A stretch of DNA of 64,000 nucleotides. Source: Candidatus Chloroploca mongolica (GTDB lineage: Bacteria; Chloroflexota; Chloroflexia; Chloroflexales; Chloroflexaceae). The position numbers and the translations under genes are program-made. Shown here piece after piece: positions 30,979-41,817 of this stretch. The DNA is taken from positions 1-64,000 of the forward strand of contig NZ_SIJK02000018.1 of assembly GCF_004762035.2 (NCBI RefSeq), written 5' to 3'. Each line of letters starts with the position of its first letter. Positions within the stretch are counted from its first letter, which is position 1. The notes beneath the pieces are model-generated. The model saw nothing but the letters and a program-made list of their open reading frames with translations, was not told the origin of the DNA and made no database searches.

Positions 30979-31434
30979 AATGCTATGCCCTGGTTCTAGA
31001 TCTTCCGCTCGAACAAAGCGAGCGGGCGATCAGCAAAAGAGTGTTCATCCGGTTTAGGTGCTCAAGCATGATGAACTCAGGTTTTATTATAGCATCCCGA
31101 CCCTATATATATATGGCGAAGCCGACCTGCGCCGGTTGGCTCATGCCATAAAGGTGGCCTATCGCAAACTACGAGCCAAGCCGTTTAGCGCACCTACGCT
31201 AAAGCGGATAGGAGAAGTTGCGGTAGGGAGGGTCTCAGGGAGGGCAAGTCCTCCCTGAAAAATGCACTACGTACCCACTCAATGCCGCAAGCGCAGCTTG
31301 CAAGCATTGAGAAGACCATCACGGCGACGGCAGAAGATGCCAACCCCCCCCCTGGTTAGGGTTGTTATCTGTACAGACCGCCCCTGGAAAGTGAGGTAGA
31401 ATATCATCAGTCATATGAAAGGAGATTGCTGACC
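30979..31434. other. 456-bp intergenic region with two hairpins
   Basis: CAGGGAGG/CCTCCCTG at 31236-31257 followed by AAAA is a short terminator-like hairpin, and an imperfect hairpin lies at 31278-31311 around GCA. AAAGGAG at 31418-31424 is the ribosome binding site of the next gene. A 66-codon open frame at 31058-31258 lacks any recognisable feature and is not called as a gene. Confidence 0.5.
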
Positions 31435-33399
31435 ATGCAAGAAAAGATAGATGTGCTCCTCATTGGGGGTACCGTGGTGACGATGGATGCCAACTGGACA
31501 ATCATTGCCGATGGTGCCGTGGCGGTGAAAGATAAACGAATCCTCGCCGTTGGCCCAACCCCGATGATCGTCGACCAGTATAGCGCAGACACGATCATTG
31601 ATTGCGCCGGGTGCGCGATTATGCCCGGTCTGATCAATGCCCACGCGCACGTCCCAATGAGTCTGTTGCGCGGGATGGTTGCCGATCAGCAACTGGACGT
31701 CTGGCTCTTTGGTTATATGTTCCCTGTCGAGAGCCAGTTTGTTGATGCTGAGTTTTCCTATGTCGGTACCTTGCTCTCGTGTGCCGAGATGCTCCGTGGG
31801 GGCACGACGACCTTTGTTGATATGTACTATTTTGAAGAGGAGGTCGCCCGCGCCGCCGACGAGTCCGGTATGCGCGCTATCTGCGGGCAGACCGTGATGC
31901 GCTTGCCCACGCCCGATGCCGCCTCGTTTGACGAGGGTATCGAGCGCTCACGTCGCTTTATGGAAGCCTGGCATACCCACGAGCGCATTGTGCCGACAAT
32001 TGCCCCGCACGCTCCTTATACCTGCACCGACCAGATCTACCATGAAGCCTCGGCGCTCTGCAAGGCTTTTGGCGTACCACTGATTACCCATCTCTCGGAA
32101 ACGGCCCGCGAGGTCGAAGAGAGCATCCGTGATCGCGAGGTGACCCCGATTCGCTATGCCAAGCGTGTCGGGGCCTTTGATGTGCCCTGCATTGCCGCCC
32201 ATTGCGTCCACGCTACCGAAGATGATATGCGCCTCCTCCGCGAGGCTCAGGTCGGCGCAGTGCCATGTCCAACAAGTAACCTCAAACTTGCTAGTGGCAT
32301 CGCGCCCATTCGCCGCCTGATCGAAGTCGGCGTACGCACGGGCCTCGGTACCGATGGGCCGGCTTCCAATGATGACCAGGATATGTTTACCGAGATTCAG
32401 CTCGCTGCGCTGCTCCCCAAAGGTGTCAGCGGCGACCCAACTGCCGTGCCCGCCCGCGATGCGCTCGCCATGGCAACCTGCTGGGGTGCCCGTGCGATCC
32501 ATCTCGACCATTTGACTGGCTCGCTTGAGCCCGGCAAGCAGGCTGATATCGCGGTCGTGGGGCTCGGACGCTTGCATAGCGCACCACGCTACACCTACAG
32601 TAACGATGCGATCTATTCGCACCTCGTCTATGGTGCCCGCGCCGCCGATGTGCGCGATGTTTTCGTTGATGGTCGAGCACTCTTGCTCAATGGTGCCCTG
32701 CAAACGCTTGATGAAGAGGCGATCCTGCGCCAGTCACAGGTGATCGCCGAACGCATCAATGCCTTCCTCGCCAGCCGTGAACGCGACCTGCTCGCCAAGA
32801 TTATTGCCCTCGGTGGGGTCGAACAGGCCGAGATCTTTGAGATCCAGGTCAAGGCGCACCTCGATAGTGAGGCCGCCGTTGGAGTGCTGCTCAAGAGCCC
32901 CGAGATTACGATTAGCAAGCAGAGTGTGCGTACCCAGTACGATACGTACTTTCTTTTCCAGAATGAGGAACGCATCCGCATTCGTGAAGATCATCGCACC
33001 GATCCCGGTGCACGTCCCGAACCCAAGTATACGATCACCCTGGTCGCCGAAGCCGTTCGTGGCGAATATCCGCACGCGATCGTGCTCTCACGGGCACGCT
33101 ACACAGCCCCTGCCGATCACAGTGCCCGTTTTTATCGCGAGTATTTCCAGCCCGACCGAGTTCACGAACTCGAGAAGCAGCGCCGACGCTGGCGGATTCT
33201 CTACAAGGGCTATGATTTTGCCCTCAACCTCGATACGCTCGCCGACAGCGCTGACCCTGGCCCCTACCTCGAAATTAAAGCCCGTACATGGAGTAGCCGT
33301 GACGCCGCTCACCGGGCCACGTTGATTGGTGAACTTCTGACGCTCGCCGGTCTCAACGAGCGCAATCTGGTCAAGCAAGAGTATGTAGAGATGGGGTAA
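31435..33399 (+). CDS. Amidohydrolase (MTA/SAH deaminase-like) fused to a CYTH domain
   Basis: A 654-residue two-domain protein. Residues 1-460 are a complete amidohydrolase of the MtaD/chlorohydrolase type: HAHVPM (H70, H72), THLSE (H219, E222), AAHCVH (H256) and GTDGPAS (D307) are the expected metal and catalytic residues. Relatives deaminate 5'-methylthioadenosine, S-adenosylhomocysteine or adenosine. Residues 465-654 match CYTH (CyaB/thiamine-triphosphatase): EIQVK (469-473), YDTYF, RIRIRED, KYTIT, the R-rich middle and YLEIKA, which form the triphosphate tunnel. The second Glu of the ExExK motif is Gln. The ATG at 31435 fits AAAGGAG 10 nt upstream; the TTG at 31426 does not. It is followed after 4 nt by coaE. 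The fusion suggests linked handling of an adenine nucleotide. Confidence 0.88.
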   Translation: MQEKIDVLLIGGTVVTMDANWTIIADGAVAVKDKRILAVGPTPMIVDQYSADTIIDCAGCAIMPGLINAHAHVPMSLLRGMVADQQLDVWLFGYMFPVESQFVDAEFSYVGTLLSCAEMLRGGTTTFVDMYYFEEEVARAADESGMRAICGQTVMRLPTPDAASFDEGIERSRRFMEAWHTHERIVPTIAPHAPYTCTDQIYHEASALCKAFGVPLITHLSETAREVEESIRDREVTPIRYAKRVGAFDVPCIAAHCVHATEDDMRLLREAQVGAVPCPTSNLKLASGIAPIRRLIEVGVRTGLGTDGPASNDDQDMFTEIQLAALLPKGVSGDPTAVPARDALAMATCWGARAIHLDHLTGSLEPGKQADIAVVGLGRLHSAPRYTYSNDAIYSHLVYGARAADVRDVFVDGRALLLNGALQTLDEEAILRQSQVIAERINAFLASRERDLLAKIIALGGVEQAEIFEIQVKAHLDSEAAVGVLLKSPEITISKQSVRTQYDTYFLFQNEERIRIREDHRTDPGARPEPKYTITLVAEAVRGEYPHAIVLSRARYTAPADHSARFYREYFQPDRVHELEKQRRRWRILYKGYDFALNLDTLADSADPGPYLEIKARTWSSRDAAHRATLIGELLTLAGLNERNLVKQEYVEMG

Positions 33400-35047: not shown

Positions 35048-36052
35048 TTAAAACTCTCCCGCAAAATGGCAGGCGGCCCAGTGACCTTTGCGTTTCTCTT
35101 CAAACACCGGATCCTGTTCTTTGCAGATATCACGGGCAATCCAGCAACGGGGATGAAAGCGGCATCCCTGCGGCGGATTGATCGGACTCGGCACATCGCC
35201 CTGTAACACAATGCGATCACGGCGCGTCGTTGGATCAGCACTCGGAATCGCCGAGATCAACGCTTTGGTGTAAGGATGCAATGGCTCACGGAAGAGATCA
35301 TCACGGCCTGCCAGTTCGACCATCTTGCCGAGATACATTACGCCAACGCGATCACTGATGTGCTCAACAACGGCCAGGTTGTGGGCAATGAAGAGATAGG
35401 TGAGGCCAAATTCACGCTGTAGATTCTTGAGCAGATTCAGCACTTGCGACTGGATCGACACATCGAGCGCACTGACTGGCTCATCACACACGACCAGCTT
35501 GGGTTCCATGATCAATGCCCGCGCAATACCAATGCGCTGACGCTGCCCACCCGAAAACTCGTGCGGAAAGCGGTTCATCTGATTGGCATGCAGCCCCACC
35601 CGCCCGAGCACTTCGCGCACCCGTTCACGACGCTCAGCCGAAGAGCCGATATTATGGATCACCAGACCCTCGGCGATGCTCTCACCAACCGTAATGCGGG
35701 GATCGAGCGAAGCGTAGGGATCCTGGAAGACAATCTGCATATCGCGGCGCAGCAACTTCATCTGACGACTGCCAGAGCGGAGAACATCTTTGCCCTCAAA
35801 GAGCACTTCGCCCGACGTTGCTTTTTCAAGGCGCAGCACGGTACGACCCGTCGTCGTCTTGCCACAACCGCTCTCGCCCACCAGACCAAGCGTCTCGCCG
35901 CGTTTGACGACAAAACTCACCCCGTCAACCGCTTTGACCGTCGCCACCGTCCGGCGCAACACACCACCTTTGATCGGAAAATGCTTTTTCAGATCATTCA
36001 CTTCAAGCAACACATTGGGATCTGCTGGCGCAGATGTTGGTACTGTTGTCAT
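35048..36052 (-). CDS. oppF: Oligopeptide/dipeptide ABC transporter ATPase (OppF-like)
   Basis: A 334-residue ABC ATPase. Walker [11 protein letters not shown]-loop [11 protein letters not shown], signature [15 protein letters not shown], Walker [13 protein letters not shown], and the C-terminal Opp/Dpp extension with CRFHPRC and a second Cys pair. Family members often carry an iron-sulfur or metal site formed by these Cys residues. It partners OppD from the upstream gene. Confidence 0.94.
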
Positions 36053-36075: not shown

Positions 36076-37092
36076 TCATTCAAACAACCAGCAACGCACC
36101 TTGCGTCCATGTTCGAGCGAGACCATCGGGGGTGCCTCATCGCACTTCTCGAACCGATGGCTGCACCGCGAGGCAAAGCGACACCCTGTCGGCGGATTGA
36201 TCAGGCTCGGTACCGTACCGGGAATGACGGCGAGCTCCTCGCGCACCTCACCGAGCACCGGCATCGAATTGAGCAACCCGACCGTATAGGGATGTTTCGG
36301 TTCAGCAAAGATCGCCCTGACACTGGCATACTCGACCACCTGACCGGCATACATCACGATCACATTGTCAGCCATTTCGGCAACAACACCCATATCATGG
36401 GTGATCAGGATAATCGCGGTATCAATCTTTTCGCGCATCTCGCGCATCAGATCGAGGATCTGGGCCTGGATCGTCACATCAAGCGCCGTCGTGGGTTCAT
36501 CAGCGATGAGCAACTCGGGGGTACAGGCGAGCGCCATGGCAATCATCACACGCTGGCACTGCCCACCCGACAACTCGTGCGGATACTGGCTCATCCGGCG
36601 CGCCGGGTCAGGCAAACCCACCATCGTCAACAACTCGATGCACCGGCGATCGGCCTCGTCGCCCGTCAAACCCTGGTGAATATTGAGCGTCTCGGTGATC
36701 TGAGCGCCGACACGAAAGACAGGATTGAGCGCGGTCGTCGGCTGCTGAAAGATCATCGAGATCCGGTCACCCCGAATCTTGCGCATGTCCTCTTCGCTCT
36801 TGGCCAGCAGATCCTCGCCATCAAAGATCATACGCCCCTCGACCACACGACCAGGGCGGCTGATCAAGCGCAAAATCGAGAGTGACGTCACACTCTTGCC
36901 CGAACCACTCTCCCCGACAATACTGAGGGTCTCGCCACGTTTGACTTCAAAGTCAACGCCATCTACGGCCTGCACAACCCCTTCATCGGTAAAAAAATGG
37001 GTCTTGAGGCCCTCTACGCGCAACAAAATGCGCTTGTCACTACTATCAACTGCTTGTTGAACCCGTGCAGACGTCTCTGGTGCGGTAGCCAC
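36076..37092 (-). CDS. oppD: Oligopeptide/dipeptide ABC transporter ATPase (OppD-like)
   Basis: A 338-residue ABC ATPase with Walker [21 protein letters not shown], signature [15 protein letters not shown], Walker [13 protein letters not shown], and a C-terminal CRFASRC segment. It starts 6 nt after oppC and is followed 23 nt later by oppF. Both ATPases are complete, so the transporter is likely active. Confidence 0.94.
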
Positions 37093-37098
37093 AGACTC

Positions 37099-38091
37099 TT
37101 ATCCTCTCTGGCGCGGATCAAGCGCATCACGCAGACCATCACCGATATAGTTAATCGCAATCGAGCAGAAGAGAATGGGCAAACTAGGAATCAATGGCAT
37201 CCAGGGATGCTGAAACATATAGCTCTGTGCAAAGGAAAGCATGTTACCCCAGGTTGGCGTCGGATCTTGAATCCCGAACCCGAGAAAACTGAGTGCCGAC
37301 TCAGCTACGAGCGTCGCATTGATGCCAAGGGTAAAGTCGACAATCATCGGTGGTAACGCATTAGGGAAGACGTGACGACCAAGGATGCGCACATTCGAAG
37401 CCCCGAGCGCACGTGACGACTCGATATAGACATTCTCACGCACCGAAAGTACCATCCCGCGCATCAGACGGGCGGTTCCGGTCCACCCAAAGAGCGAGAG
37501 TACCAGGATGACGGCAAAAATAATGCGCGCCTCACGTGGACTCACGGCAAAAATCCAGGCCAGAAAGTTCGCAAAGAAATCTGGTATTGGAATACTGTTA
37601 ATATTCTGTACCAGAATCGAAGACATAATCAGCAAAAGGAGCAGGGTTGGAAACGTTGCGACCACCTCAAGGGTACGGCTAATGGCAATATCCACCCAAC
37701 CACCAAAATATCCTGCAATCATCCCAAGCAGAATCCCGATGGTCGAGGCAATCAAGGTCGCAAAAAAGGCCGTCCCGAGTGACACCCGCGATGCATAGAG
37801 CAAACGGGTATAGAAATCGCGCCCCAGGTGATCGGTGCCAAAAAGCCGGAAATTACCCTGCGAGTCGACGGTAAACGGGGGTACAAAGCGGGTCTGCAAA
37901 TTGGGCGCATCACGGGGAAAGGGAGCAATCACAGGGGCAAGCGCAGAAATGATCACCAGCATCACCAGCAAGACCAGGCTAACGACGGCAATTTTATGCT
38001 TGCGAAAGCGACGGAGCACAATTTGCCATTGCGTTTCTGATGGTGCTCGTGAGGTCTCGTCACCTGGTACAACTGTGGTTGTTGCAGTCAT
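37099..38091 (-). CDS. oppC: Oligopeptide/dipeptide ABC transporter permease (OppC-like)
   Basis: A 330-residue permease with N-terminal QIVLRRFRKHKIAVVSLVLL, the FGTDHLGRDFYTRLLYASRVSLG motif of OppC/DppC, and the coupling loop YIESSRALGASNVRILGRHVFPNALPP. About six membrane helices. It starts 114 bp after oppB, and the gap holds an inverted repeat. Confidence 0.93.
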   Translation of the reverse strand: MTATTTVVPGDETSRAPSETQWQIVLRRFRKHKIAVVSLVLLVMLVIISALAPVIAPFPRDAPNLQTRFVPPFTVDSQGNFRLFGTDHLGRDFYTRLLYASRVSLGTAFFATLIASTIGILLGMIAGYFGGWVDIAISRTLEVVATFPTLLLLLIMSSILVQNINSIPIPDFFANFLAWIFAVSPREARIIFAVILVLSLFGWTGTARLMRGMVLSVRENVYIESSRALGASNVRILGRHVFPNALPPMIVDFTLGINATLVAESALSFLGFGIQDPTPTWGNMLSFAQSYMFQHPWMPLIPSLPILFCSIAINYIGDGLRDALDPRQRG

Positions 38092-38205: not shown

Positions 38206-39399
38206 TTAACCCAAACGGATCCGGGGATCAACGATCGTATACAAAATATCGGTGATCAGAATACCGATCAACAGCAACACCACATTGATAAAGAGCAGGG
38301 CCATGACCACATTGTAATCATTACGCCCAAGCGCATCAATAAAGAGCCGCCCGAGGCCAGGCCAGTTAAAGACCGACTCGGTGATCAATGCGCCGCCAAA
38401 AAGGGCCGCAAGCACACCAGCCAGCAGGGTCACAAACGGGATCAGCGAGTTCCGCAGGGCATGCTTGGTAATCACAACCTGTTCACGGACACCCTTCGCA
38501 CGGGCGGTACGTACATAATCCTGCTGCAATACTTCAAGCATACTGCCCCGTACAAAGCGGCTCCAGCCAGCAATATTGATAAACGTGAGCACGCTAACCG
38601 GCATCAAGAAGCGCAGGAAACGGTCGAGGAACGAACCAGCCTCCACAGTGCCAATCCAGGGAATGGTATAGTCGCGCACACCGACGGCATCGCCAGGGGG
38701 CAAAAAGGGCAAACCGGCCCGTTGGGCCAGAATCGAAAAGATCAGAATCGCAAAAATACCAAAGACAAAACTGGGTAACGAGGAACCAATGAAGGCAATC
38801 GTCGTCATCGTATAGTCAAAGCGTGAATACTGCTTGACCGCCGAGTAGATCCCGATTGGGACGCCGATCAGGATCGCGAAGAGAATCGAAGCCCCCATCA
38901 GCGAGAGCGTATAGGGCAGACGGGTTGCGATCAGGTCACTTACGGGGCGATCACGCAAAATCACCTGACTCACCCCAAAATCCCCAAAGAAGACCCCACG
39001 ACTCACGCGGCGCCCCTCGAGTTCGGCTAGGGTCAAGTAATCAGCACAACCCTCTTCCACCAGTTCAAACGTACCATCAGGATAGACCAGGCGCACCTGC
39101 CCGGGCGTCTGACAGCCAATCGCCCAGTCAGCGCCGATCGAACCAAAGAGCGGGCCTGAGGGCCAACCGATCAGCCAGCGCGTAAAGCGAAAGGGCAGAT
39201 AGACATCAAGATCAAAGCGCTGTTGCACGCGCTGAATATCAGCCTGATTGATCCGATCCTGCCCCGAATTCTGACGTTCAGCCAGCAACGCATCAACAGG
39301 GCCACCAGGGACGAGATAGAGCAACCCATACGAGAGCAGAGCCGCGACAATCGTCACCACAAACATCTGAAAGATGCGTCGAACAAGAAATGCTACCAT
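38206..39399 (-). CDS. oppB: Oligopeptide/dipeptide ABC transporter permease (OppB-like), with inserted loop
   Basis: A 397-residue permease from the ATG at 39399, because MVAFLVRRIFQMFVV is the family start; an upstream ATG at 39507 would add 36 non-family residues. The first helix is about 5-30. Residues about 45-150 are a longer extracytoplasmic loop than in typical OppB, with FGDFGVS near its end. The coupling loop is QDYVRTARAKGVREQVVITKHALRNSLIP. The insertion may contact the unusual binding protein encoded upstream. Confidence 0.91.
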   Translation of the reverse strand: MVAFLVRRIFQMFVVTIVAALLSYGLLYLVPGGPVDALLAERQNSGQDRINQADIQRVQQRFDLDVYLPFRFTRWLIGWPSGPLFGSIGADWAIGCQTPGQVRLVYPDGTFELVEEGCADYLTLAELEGRRVSRGVFFGDFGVSQVILRDRPVSDLIATRLPYTLSLMGASILFAILIGVPIGIYSAVKQYSRFDYTMTTIAFIGSSLPSFVFGIFAILIFSILAQRAGLPFLPPGDAVGVRDYTIPWIGTVEAGSFLDRFLRFLMPVSVLTFINIAGWSRFVRGSMLEVLQQDYVRTARAKGVREQVVITKHALRNSLIPFVTLLAGVLAALFGGALITESVFNWPGLGRLFIDALGRNDYNVVMALLFINVVLLLIGILITDILYTIVDPRIRLG

Positions 39400-39565: not shown

Positions 39566-41512
39566 TTACCTGACGTTCAGGTTGAAGTCGATATGCTCCC
39601 AGGTCGAGCTTGCAATGGTAAAGGCCTGAACATCACCAGCGACACCAGCCTGCAGCACCGTCTCGACCTCAGGTCCGGCACCCAGGGTCTCGGAACCAAG
39701 CACGTCAACCTCACCAGTCAGCAACTGGGCTACGGCCTGATTGGTATCGGCAATGAACTTGATCACAACCGTCTTGACCTCTGGCTCACCCAGGAAGAAG
39801 TTCGGGTTCGCACGGAAGGTCATGCTCTGACCCTTCTCCCAGCTCTCCAGGATGAAGGGGCCATTGCTCAACGGCTGCTCAACGATCTCGGGCAGGCTGC
39901 TCCACTCGCTAGCAGGCACATCAGCCAGCACGCGGCCATCGCTGATCTCCTGGTGCGACGGGTAGGCCCCAATCGGTGCCAGGAAGTAGGTCGGCCACTG
40001 CACGCCAGGATGATAGGTCACGGTGTAGCTGGTGTCGCTGCTGAAATCAATCTCAGCAATCGAGTTACAGGTAGCAAACGAGACCGCACCCGAGTCAGGG
40101 TCACAGTTGATGCTGTAGGCAAGCTCGAAGTCAGCCTGCTTGAGTGGCTCGCCATCTTCCCAGACCTGACCCTCAACGAAGTTGTAGGTCGCAACCAGTT
40201 GCTTGAGGGTGACTGTGCCGCTCTCATAGACAACCGTCTCACCATTGACGTCAACAACCGTCACGCCGGGGGCGAGTTCGACGGCTTCGCCATCAATATT
40301 CCAGACAATGTCGCCCGCCGTTACTTCAATGTCTTCGTTGGTCGCAAGACCAGACTCGATGGTTGAAAGCTCAGTCTGACCCTTGGCCTGATAGTCGTAG
40401 CTATACTCAGTGGCAAAGGGGTAGCTCAGCAAGAACGAAGCCGTACGCTGGACAGCAGCACTCTCGATCAAGCTCCAGAGCGTAGCCGGCTCCTGCGTAA
40501 AGCCAAGTACCACGGTGTCACCACCATCGGTGAGCGTCCACTCTTCGATGTTGGCGGTGTAGTATTCGGTCGGGTCGGCGATGAAGCCCTCAATGCGGTT
40601 GCTGGCAGCAGCAGCCTCAAGGCGGTTGAAGACGGGCAAGCTCACCATATCATTGGCGAACTCTTCCTGGACAATCGCGTACTGGCGGATGCGCTCGTCG
40701 CGATCAAGCGTATTGTTGGCAGCAACGATGGCCTGGCTGGCACGCTCGTTACACCAACCCATGTAGTTCTGACCTTCCCAGTTGTTATCGGGGGTCGGAA
40801 TTTGGTTACAGGCATAGAGCGTACGGCCAGCGGGGTCAGTCTGACCAACCCAGGCAAAGGCACCAAGCTCGAAGTCGCGGCGCGCCAGGCCGGTGCTGCT
40901 GCCAAACCACCACGAGCCAGGGGCATAGGTCGGGATGACCTGGATGCCACACGCAGCCATCTGCTGAATAAAGACCGCCGACCAGGTCTGACGGAACTGG
41001 GCATTGGTGGTGGTGAAGCTCAGAGCGAGCGGATCACCATCAGCATTGGCACGAACCGGGGTTCCTGTCCAGCCAGCCGCCTCAAGCAGCGCCTGACCCT
41101 GCTCGGGATCAAACGGATAGGTAGTCACATCAGTGTTGACGGCCCAGTGGCTCTTGGGGATAAAGGTATCCATCAACAAGCCGGTCTGCTGCTCCTCATC
41201 AAGGAACGGATAGACCGAGGCAATCAACTCGGGGCGATTGGTGCAGTAGGCAATTGCCTGACGCACATTAATGTCACTCAAAACTGGGTGCGGGGTCGTA
41301 AACGCCCCACCCGTCACCGGCTCACCGGGCTCCGGCTCGGCAACTACGGTCTGCTCAACGACAACCGTCTCGCGTACCGGCTCAGCAGTCTGTACTACCA
41401 CGACCGTCTCTCGCACAACCTCGGTCTGCGCTGCGCCACCACAGGCTGCGAGAATGGGAACCAATACCGCCAGTAGGGTCACTACGACAGCACGTCTGAA
41501 AGCAATACTCAT
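39566..41512 (-). CDS. Circularly permuted Opp/Dpp-family substrate-binding lipoprotein
   Basis: A 648-residue lipoprotein from ATG 41512 (GGAGG upstream; the 41617 start adds 35 non-signal residues). The signal ends in LAAC (Cys24), then a V/E/T-rich tether to about residue 70. Residues about 75-330 match the C-terminal half of SBP_bac_5: DINVRQAIAYCTNR, the YPFDPEQGQALLEAAGW block and the ERIRQYAIVQEEF block. Residues about 332-648 match the N-terminal half: VVLGFTQEPATL, DGEPLKQADFELAYS, NGPFILESWEKGQSMTF, ending WEHIDFNLN. In normal members FNLN is followed by the VRQAIAY block, so the old termini are joined near residue 330 and new ones opened there. Both lobes are complete. It heads the oppBCDF operon. 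Confidence 0.87.
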   Translation of the reverse strand: MSIAFRRAVVVTLLAVLVPILAACGGAAQTEVVRETVVVVQTAEPVRETVVVEQTVVAEPEPGEPVTGGAFTTPHPVLSDINVRQAIAYCTNRPELIASVYPFLDEEQQTGLLMDTFIPKSHWAVNTDVTTYPFDPEQGQALLEAAGWTGTPVRANADGDPLALSFTTTNAQFRQTWSAVFIQQMAACGIQVIPTYAPGSWWFGSSTGLARRDFELGAFAWVGQTDPAGRTLYACNQIPTPDNNWEGQNYMGWCNERASQAIVAANNTLDRDERIRQYAIVQEEFANDMVSLPVFNRLEAAAASNRIEGFIADPTEYYTANIEEWTLTDGGDTVVLGFTQEPATLWSLIESAAVQRTASFLLSYPFATEYSYDYQAKGQTELSTIESGLATNEDIEVTAGDIVWNIDGEAVELAPGVTVVDVNGETVVYESGTVTLKQLVATYNFVEGQVWEDGEPLKQADFELAYSINCDPDSGAVSFATCNSIAEIDFSSDTSYTVTYHPGVQWPTYFLAPIGAYPSHQEISDGRVLADVPASEWSSLPEIVEQPLSNGPFILESWEKGQSMTFRANPNFFLGEPEVKTVVIKFIADTNQAVAQLLTGEVDVLGSETLGAGPEVETVLQAGVAGDVQAFTIASSTWEHIDFNLNVR

Positions 41513-41817
41513 CTTGGCTTTTCCCTCCGTTAACGAAACCGCTCTTCGAAACACACGTCGAACGGGGTGCTGCTTTACCGCGTATCTGGGGGAGATCTGG
41601 GTTCGCAGCCAGAACACTCGTCACTTTCGACAAGAGACCTCAGGATAACGCTGTTTCAGGAGTACGCGACCAAACCCACACAGCTGCCTGTCTGCAAGAG
41701 AGTGCATCATCTTCTGTGGGGGGTATCGTACGTGGAAACAACGGCCTTTGTAGTCTTATGCAGCGAGTTTCAAGTGTTTGGCACTAATTATACGTTGCAA
41801 GTAGGGCACTGTCAAAA
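41513..41817. other. Intergenic region upstream of the binding-protein gene
   Basis: It holds the ribosome binding site GGAGG near 41520 and presumably the promoter of the opp operon. No RNA gene, long hairpin or convincing promoter pair was recognised in the remainder. Confidence 0.4.

Follow-up and report, generated by a model that had tools for sequence, protein, structure and literature searches.

The closest described systems are oligopeptide-binding proteins of cluster C (SBP_bac_5), namely AppA of B. subtilis (1xoc), the T. thermophilus protein 2d5w and E. coli DppA, all of them secreted solute-binding proteins (SBPs) with an OppBCDF-type partner, and both of their half-folds are shared by the 648-aa protein described here. 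Compared with these three, the latter has its halves in reversed order, its tether on the hinge of the C-lobe and a free C-terminal hinge strand, and compared with DppA it apparently lacks the ligand aspartate. A permuted and tethered SBP of cluster B has been described in Treponema pallidum as MglB-2 (Tp0684) and named 'cluster Bc' (PMC4990184). The likeness consists of a natural circular permutation in a tethered SBP of an ABC importer, common to a family of relatives; MglB-2, however, has a cluster B sugar-binding fold, differs in SBP family, in class of transporter and in phyla, and is a precedent only in the way it works. As for the permease, the architecture resembles that of E. coli DppABCDF, whose B subunit has a scoop motif located between TM1 and helix alpha3 (PMC12136057), but the SBP of that system is canonical. 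No published report of a permuted SBP_bac_5 or Opp/Dpp (cluster C) protein was found in the open-access literature searched, and within that literature no natural circular permutant of the Opp/Dpp (cluster C) binding proteins seems to have been described before the present one. With a probability of about 0.9, the gene is taken to encode a true solute-binding lipoprotein of cluster C, circularly permuted in nature and working with the OppBCDF importer encoded next to it.

Order of the two halves and predicted fold

The gene occupies positions 39566..41512 on the minus strand of the window (the whole stretch of 64,000 nucleotides that was analysed), which also carries all the features given below unless noted otherwise. 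Its start codon ATG at 41512 is preceded, 10 nt upstream, by an SD-like GGAGGG (41523-41528). A signal peptide with the lipobox LAAC and Cys24 could be read from the sequence (41441..41512), a lipobox-like motif being found in 125 of 128 permuted homologues, and it is followed by a low-complexity tether (residues 25–70; 41303..41440), predicted with pLDDT below 50 at protein residues 59–67 (residues 1–9 of the structural model). The half corresponding to the C-terminal half of the canonical fold (approximately DppA 268–496) comes first (40532..41302, from phmmer against PDB and structure alignment), and the N-terminal half comes second (39569..40525, from Pfam, phmmer against PDB and a model of that half). 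At the fusion junction (40520..40537) the old C-terminal end NIEEWTL is connected through TDGG to the old N-terminal start DTVVLGF; the junction is only about 2–5 residues long. The chain ends with a free strand bearing the WEHxDxN motif of the old hinge crossover (protein residues 628–643, 39584..39631; strand 570–585 of the full model), and this tail is near-invariant among the permuted homologues.

Pfam assigns only SBP_bac_5 to the 648-aa protein; the profile PF00496 matches it in two stretches (E-value 6e-42), the strongest of which aligns protein residues 430–646 with profile positions 8–209. Two partial matches are what profile tools give for these genes because of the reversed order. 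In phmmer searches of PDB, residues 70–315 corresponded to DppA 268–496 and residues 541–605 to DppA 172–237, and the same swap was seen with AppA, residues 447–604 matching AppA 88–239 and residues 76–327 matching AppA 276–518. The nearest NCBIfam model was Opp4A, at 113 bits against a cutoff of 650. The order of N-terminal half followed by C-terminal half, which characterizes the family, was not found, while the profile match and both half-folds are present; for this lack of the canonical order the protein is classed here as a relative of SBP_bac_5 in permuted form and not as an ordinary member.

The rotation test employed a profile built from 43 canonical-order relatives only, against which the native order, a cut at residue ~330 and 22 other cut points were scored. 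The native order yielded 232 bits over profile positions 307–556, i.e. half of the profile, whereas rotation at residue ~330 produced a single full-length match of 450 bits over positions 3–556, and the scores dropped on either side of that cut. Together with the order of the phmmer matches and the half-by-half structural matches, this result bears out the circular permutation, with a breakpoint near residue 330, proposed in the sequence-only reading of the window. One detail of that reading has to be amended, namely that VRQAIA immediately follows WEHIDFNLN in ordinary proteins, as canonical relatives carry a connector of ~6–20 residues between WEHxDFN and VRQAIA.

An AlphaFold2 model of residues 59–648, based on an alignment of 58 permuted homologues, was predicted with a pLDDT of 92.2 and a pTM of 0.86. 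Its C-half (model residues 16–271) aligned with residues 274–520 of AppA 1xoc (Z 24.5), and the N-half folded alone (pLDDT 92.9) matched 1xoc residues 20–323 (Z 21.3). The structural check suggested earlier has thus returned a confident fold, both halves of which match AppA in swapped order when aligned separately. Foldseek and VIA-align each matched one half of the model at a time and not the whole chain, as expected for sequential aligners confronted with a permutant. The WEHIDFN strand was confident in the whole model but became a low-confidence helix in the N-half folded alone, that is without the C-lobe, and therefore the last strand probably belongs to the hinge and C-lobe. A paralogue in genome G030 (L150:3431-4675, minus strand) consists of the C-lobe plus a WEHIDFNL strand, has lost most of the N-half and bears a beta-rich-looking C-terminal extension ending in FLPMVMR; the fact that this mini-protein keeps the strand joined to the C-lobe supports the need of the strand for that lobe.

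Distribution and evolutionary history

All 71 full-length homologues kept from the collection searches have the permuted order, and about 45 of 400 genomes across the phylum Chloroflexota carry the permuted gene. Within the class, matches at E ≤ 1e-80 were obtained in 59 of 158 genomes, one of which (G423) is represented by the canonical-order protein L180. The named records with the permuted gene comprise Chloroflexaceae, Roseiflexus, Caldilineaceae and several Anaerolineae, and genomes with this gene also hold canonical-order paralogues. When the whole collection was scanned for the pattern with the window protein as the query, the permuted matches were in records named as Chloroflexota except for L052 and L093; these two, from records named Singulisphaera and Gracilibacteria, are Chloroflexales-like permuted operons and probably come from misnamed or mixed MAGs. 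The plasmid search gave remote relatives only, with less than 60% identity.

The question of whether the permutation is shared by other Chloroflexota can be answered affirmatively, dozens of genomes exhibiting the same order. Since the window lies in a draft genome of 160 contigs, a misassembly or a frameshift artefact that swapped the two halves had to be considered. The order is nevertheless shared, in open frames and at 42–97% identity, by independent orthologues in dozens of other Chloroflexota genomes, several of which are single-contig assemblies (G030, G148, G164, G045, G357 and G345), so that an assembly error is ruled out and an artefact of either kind has a practically negligible probability. 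In the single-contig genome G262 the permuted gene is found in two overlapping frames (L158:4303-6343, plus strand), reflecting either decay or a sequencing error, and the gene of G285 is split likewise.

In the tree of rotated sequences the permuted SBPs fall into a single clade (SH-aLRT 100), with L180 (family f3) of canonical order as its sister (SH-aLRT 99). The motifs AWVGQADPGG..LYACNQIP and WEHMDFN of L180 are common with the permuted clade. This sister position is supported at 99 by the tree of the C-half, but the tree of the N-half by itself gives no resolution at this point. The OppB proteins of the permutant operons also form one clade (support 100/99), to which the OppB of L180 is not the nearest sister.

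The halves would have been swapped once, probably through tandem duplication or fusion of an SBP from an opp operon. A linker of ~4 residues would have come to join the old C-terminus to the old N-terminus, and the first of the crossovers linking domains I and III would have been severed. Neither a repeated-half ORF nor a tandem-duplicated intermediate was found in the searched loci, the near misses being split HMM matches of one half. That observation favours an origin by fusion of two split half-genes instead of duplication followed by truncation, a history that would leave the main reading intact; however, no separate half-genes from which the clade could descend were seen either, L150 with its C-lobe only seems to have arisen by a later deletion, as it keeps the terminal strand, and an origin by fusion of half-genes is considered unlikely. 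The residues NVR at both ends of the protein, previously proposed as a possible trace of duplication, find no support as such, because the terminal residues vary among other members (LFTK, LFVR, LFIR, LYTK, etc.) and no repeated-half ORF occurs in the searched loci.

The OppBCDF operon and the function of the permuted protein

The permuted gene is followed by genes for an OppB-type permease of 397 aa (38206..39399, from ATG 39399), an OppC-type permease (37099..38091), an OppD-type ATPase (36076..37092) and an OppF-type ATPase (35048..36052), so that the complete gene set of an Opp/Dpp importer is present in the operon. The same arrangement of SBP, OppB, OppC, OppD and OppF was seen in almost all loci whose flanks were long enough, the permuted gene keeping the first place across several families, in agreement with the intact operon claimed originally. 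In some Anaerolineae a canonical SBP adjoins the cassette, and a few orphan permuted paralogues (L147 and L149) have no adjacent OppBCDF. Two permuted SBPs (L147:4035-6500, minus strand; L181:3604-6186, plus strand) bear a C-terminal extension of ~160 aa, that of L147 being ITVPNGAV...LYLPIINR, and OppBCDF was not found beside either within the sequence stretches examined. At L149:4412-9477 (plus strand) a diverged permuted paralogue is followed by a 958-aa protein with Phosphonate-bd and SBP_bac_5 domains. Elsewhere in the window, a 657-aa ORF on the plus strand (31426-33399) combines an amidohydrolase-like N-terminus with an extra C-terminal part of ~200 aa and is a possible fusion.

Hand alignment indicated that the position of Asp408 of mature DppA, one of its peptide-binding residues together with Arg355, reads Gln in the motif AWVGQ, and that Gln is already present at this position of the DppA aspartate for the peptide amino end in L180. 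As the ligand aspartate is apparently replaced, peptide specificity is doubtful and non-peptide ligands are possible. The apparent loss of this aspartate, as well as the extended paralogues L147 and L181, could be taken to indicate that the permuted protein is a sensor or a surface lipoprotein merely co-transcribed with the transporter; the conserved place of its gene at the head of the full set of four transporter genes in several families and the congruence of the SBP and OppB clades argue against such a role, which is judged very improbable.

The sequence-only reading had also pointed to an enlarged outer loop in OppB. A two-Cys segment is indeed found in the TM1-TM2 outer loop just past the scoop region (38995..39159), and segments of 59–72 aa with two cysteines were present after the scoop in all 29 sampled OppBs of permutant operons, whereas in 13 of 14 OppBs of canonical operons, that of L180 included, the segment is 7–25 aa long and contains no cysteine. 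The sole exception is the OppB at L140:1033-2220 (minus strand), which has a canonical SBP as its neighbour and a two-Cys segment of 62 aa with unlike sequence. The scoop part of the loop is conserved in length in permutant operons (34–39 aa). In DppABCDF the scoop motif, which sits in the cleft separating the two lobes of the SBP (PMC12136057), belongs to the TM1-alpha3 region of the B subunit; unlike the present OppB, no two-Cys segment of 59–72 aa past the scoop is reported there, according to our reading of the family.

As a transport SBP, the permuted protein should remain able to close around a ligand in Venus flytrap fashion and to dock on OppBC. The signal peptide and the tether would now lead into the hinge of the C-lobe, and the old crossover strand (WEHxDFN) would be a free C-terminal strand completing the sheet of the hinge and C-lobe, leaving one covalent hinge link fewer than in canonical proteins and the lipid anchor relocated. 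The OppB insert, which follows the scoop directly, may receive this free strand and is tentatively put forward, at odds well short of even, as the leading candidate for a docking element matched to the permuted SBP.

In the broadest version, held as a possibility well short of even odds, the permutation and the rewiring of OppB would be one coupled innovation, in which docking and opening were altered by the relocated anchor and the freed hinge strand, an OppB segment with a disulfide, located past the scoop, evolved to serve specifically as receptor, and the outcome was an importer subtype of its own, 'cluster Cc', passed down through much of Chloroflexota. The permutant may instead be real but neutral, the cut of the hinge crossover being tolerated, the OppB insert unrelated drift and transport ordinary, and the chance of this falls just below even. 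Insert and permutation changed on approximately one branch only, and their coincidence there makes co-adaptation something other than an independent statistical result; in L140 a canonical SBP is accompanied by an OppB whose loop is long and has two cysteines, and no obvious advantage of the permutation was found by the authors of the MglB-2 study (PMC4990184). Against neutrality stand the retention of the insert and its Cys pair in 29 of 29 sampled permutant OppBs and the near-invariance of the WEHxDxN tail.

In the permuted clade, evolution is seen breaking the hinge crossover of a large two-lobed protein. The existence of a canonical-order sister and of a co-inherited change in the permease makes it testable how much it matters, in ABC importers, how the SBP docks, how its hinge moves and where its tether is placed, and what these genomes present, in testable form, is a nutrient-uptake machine rewired across one branch of Chloroflexota.
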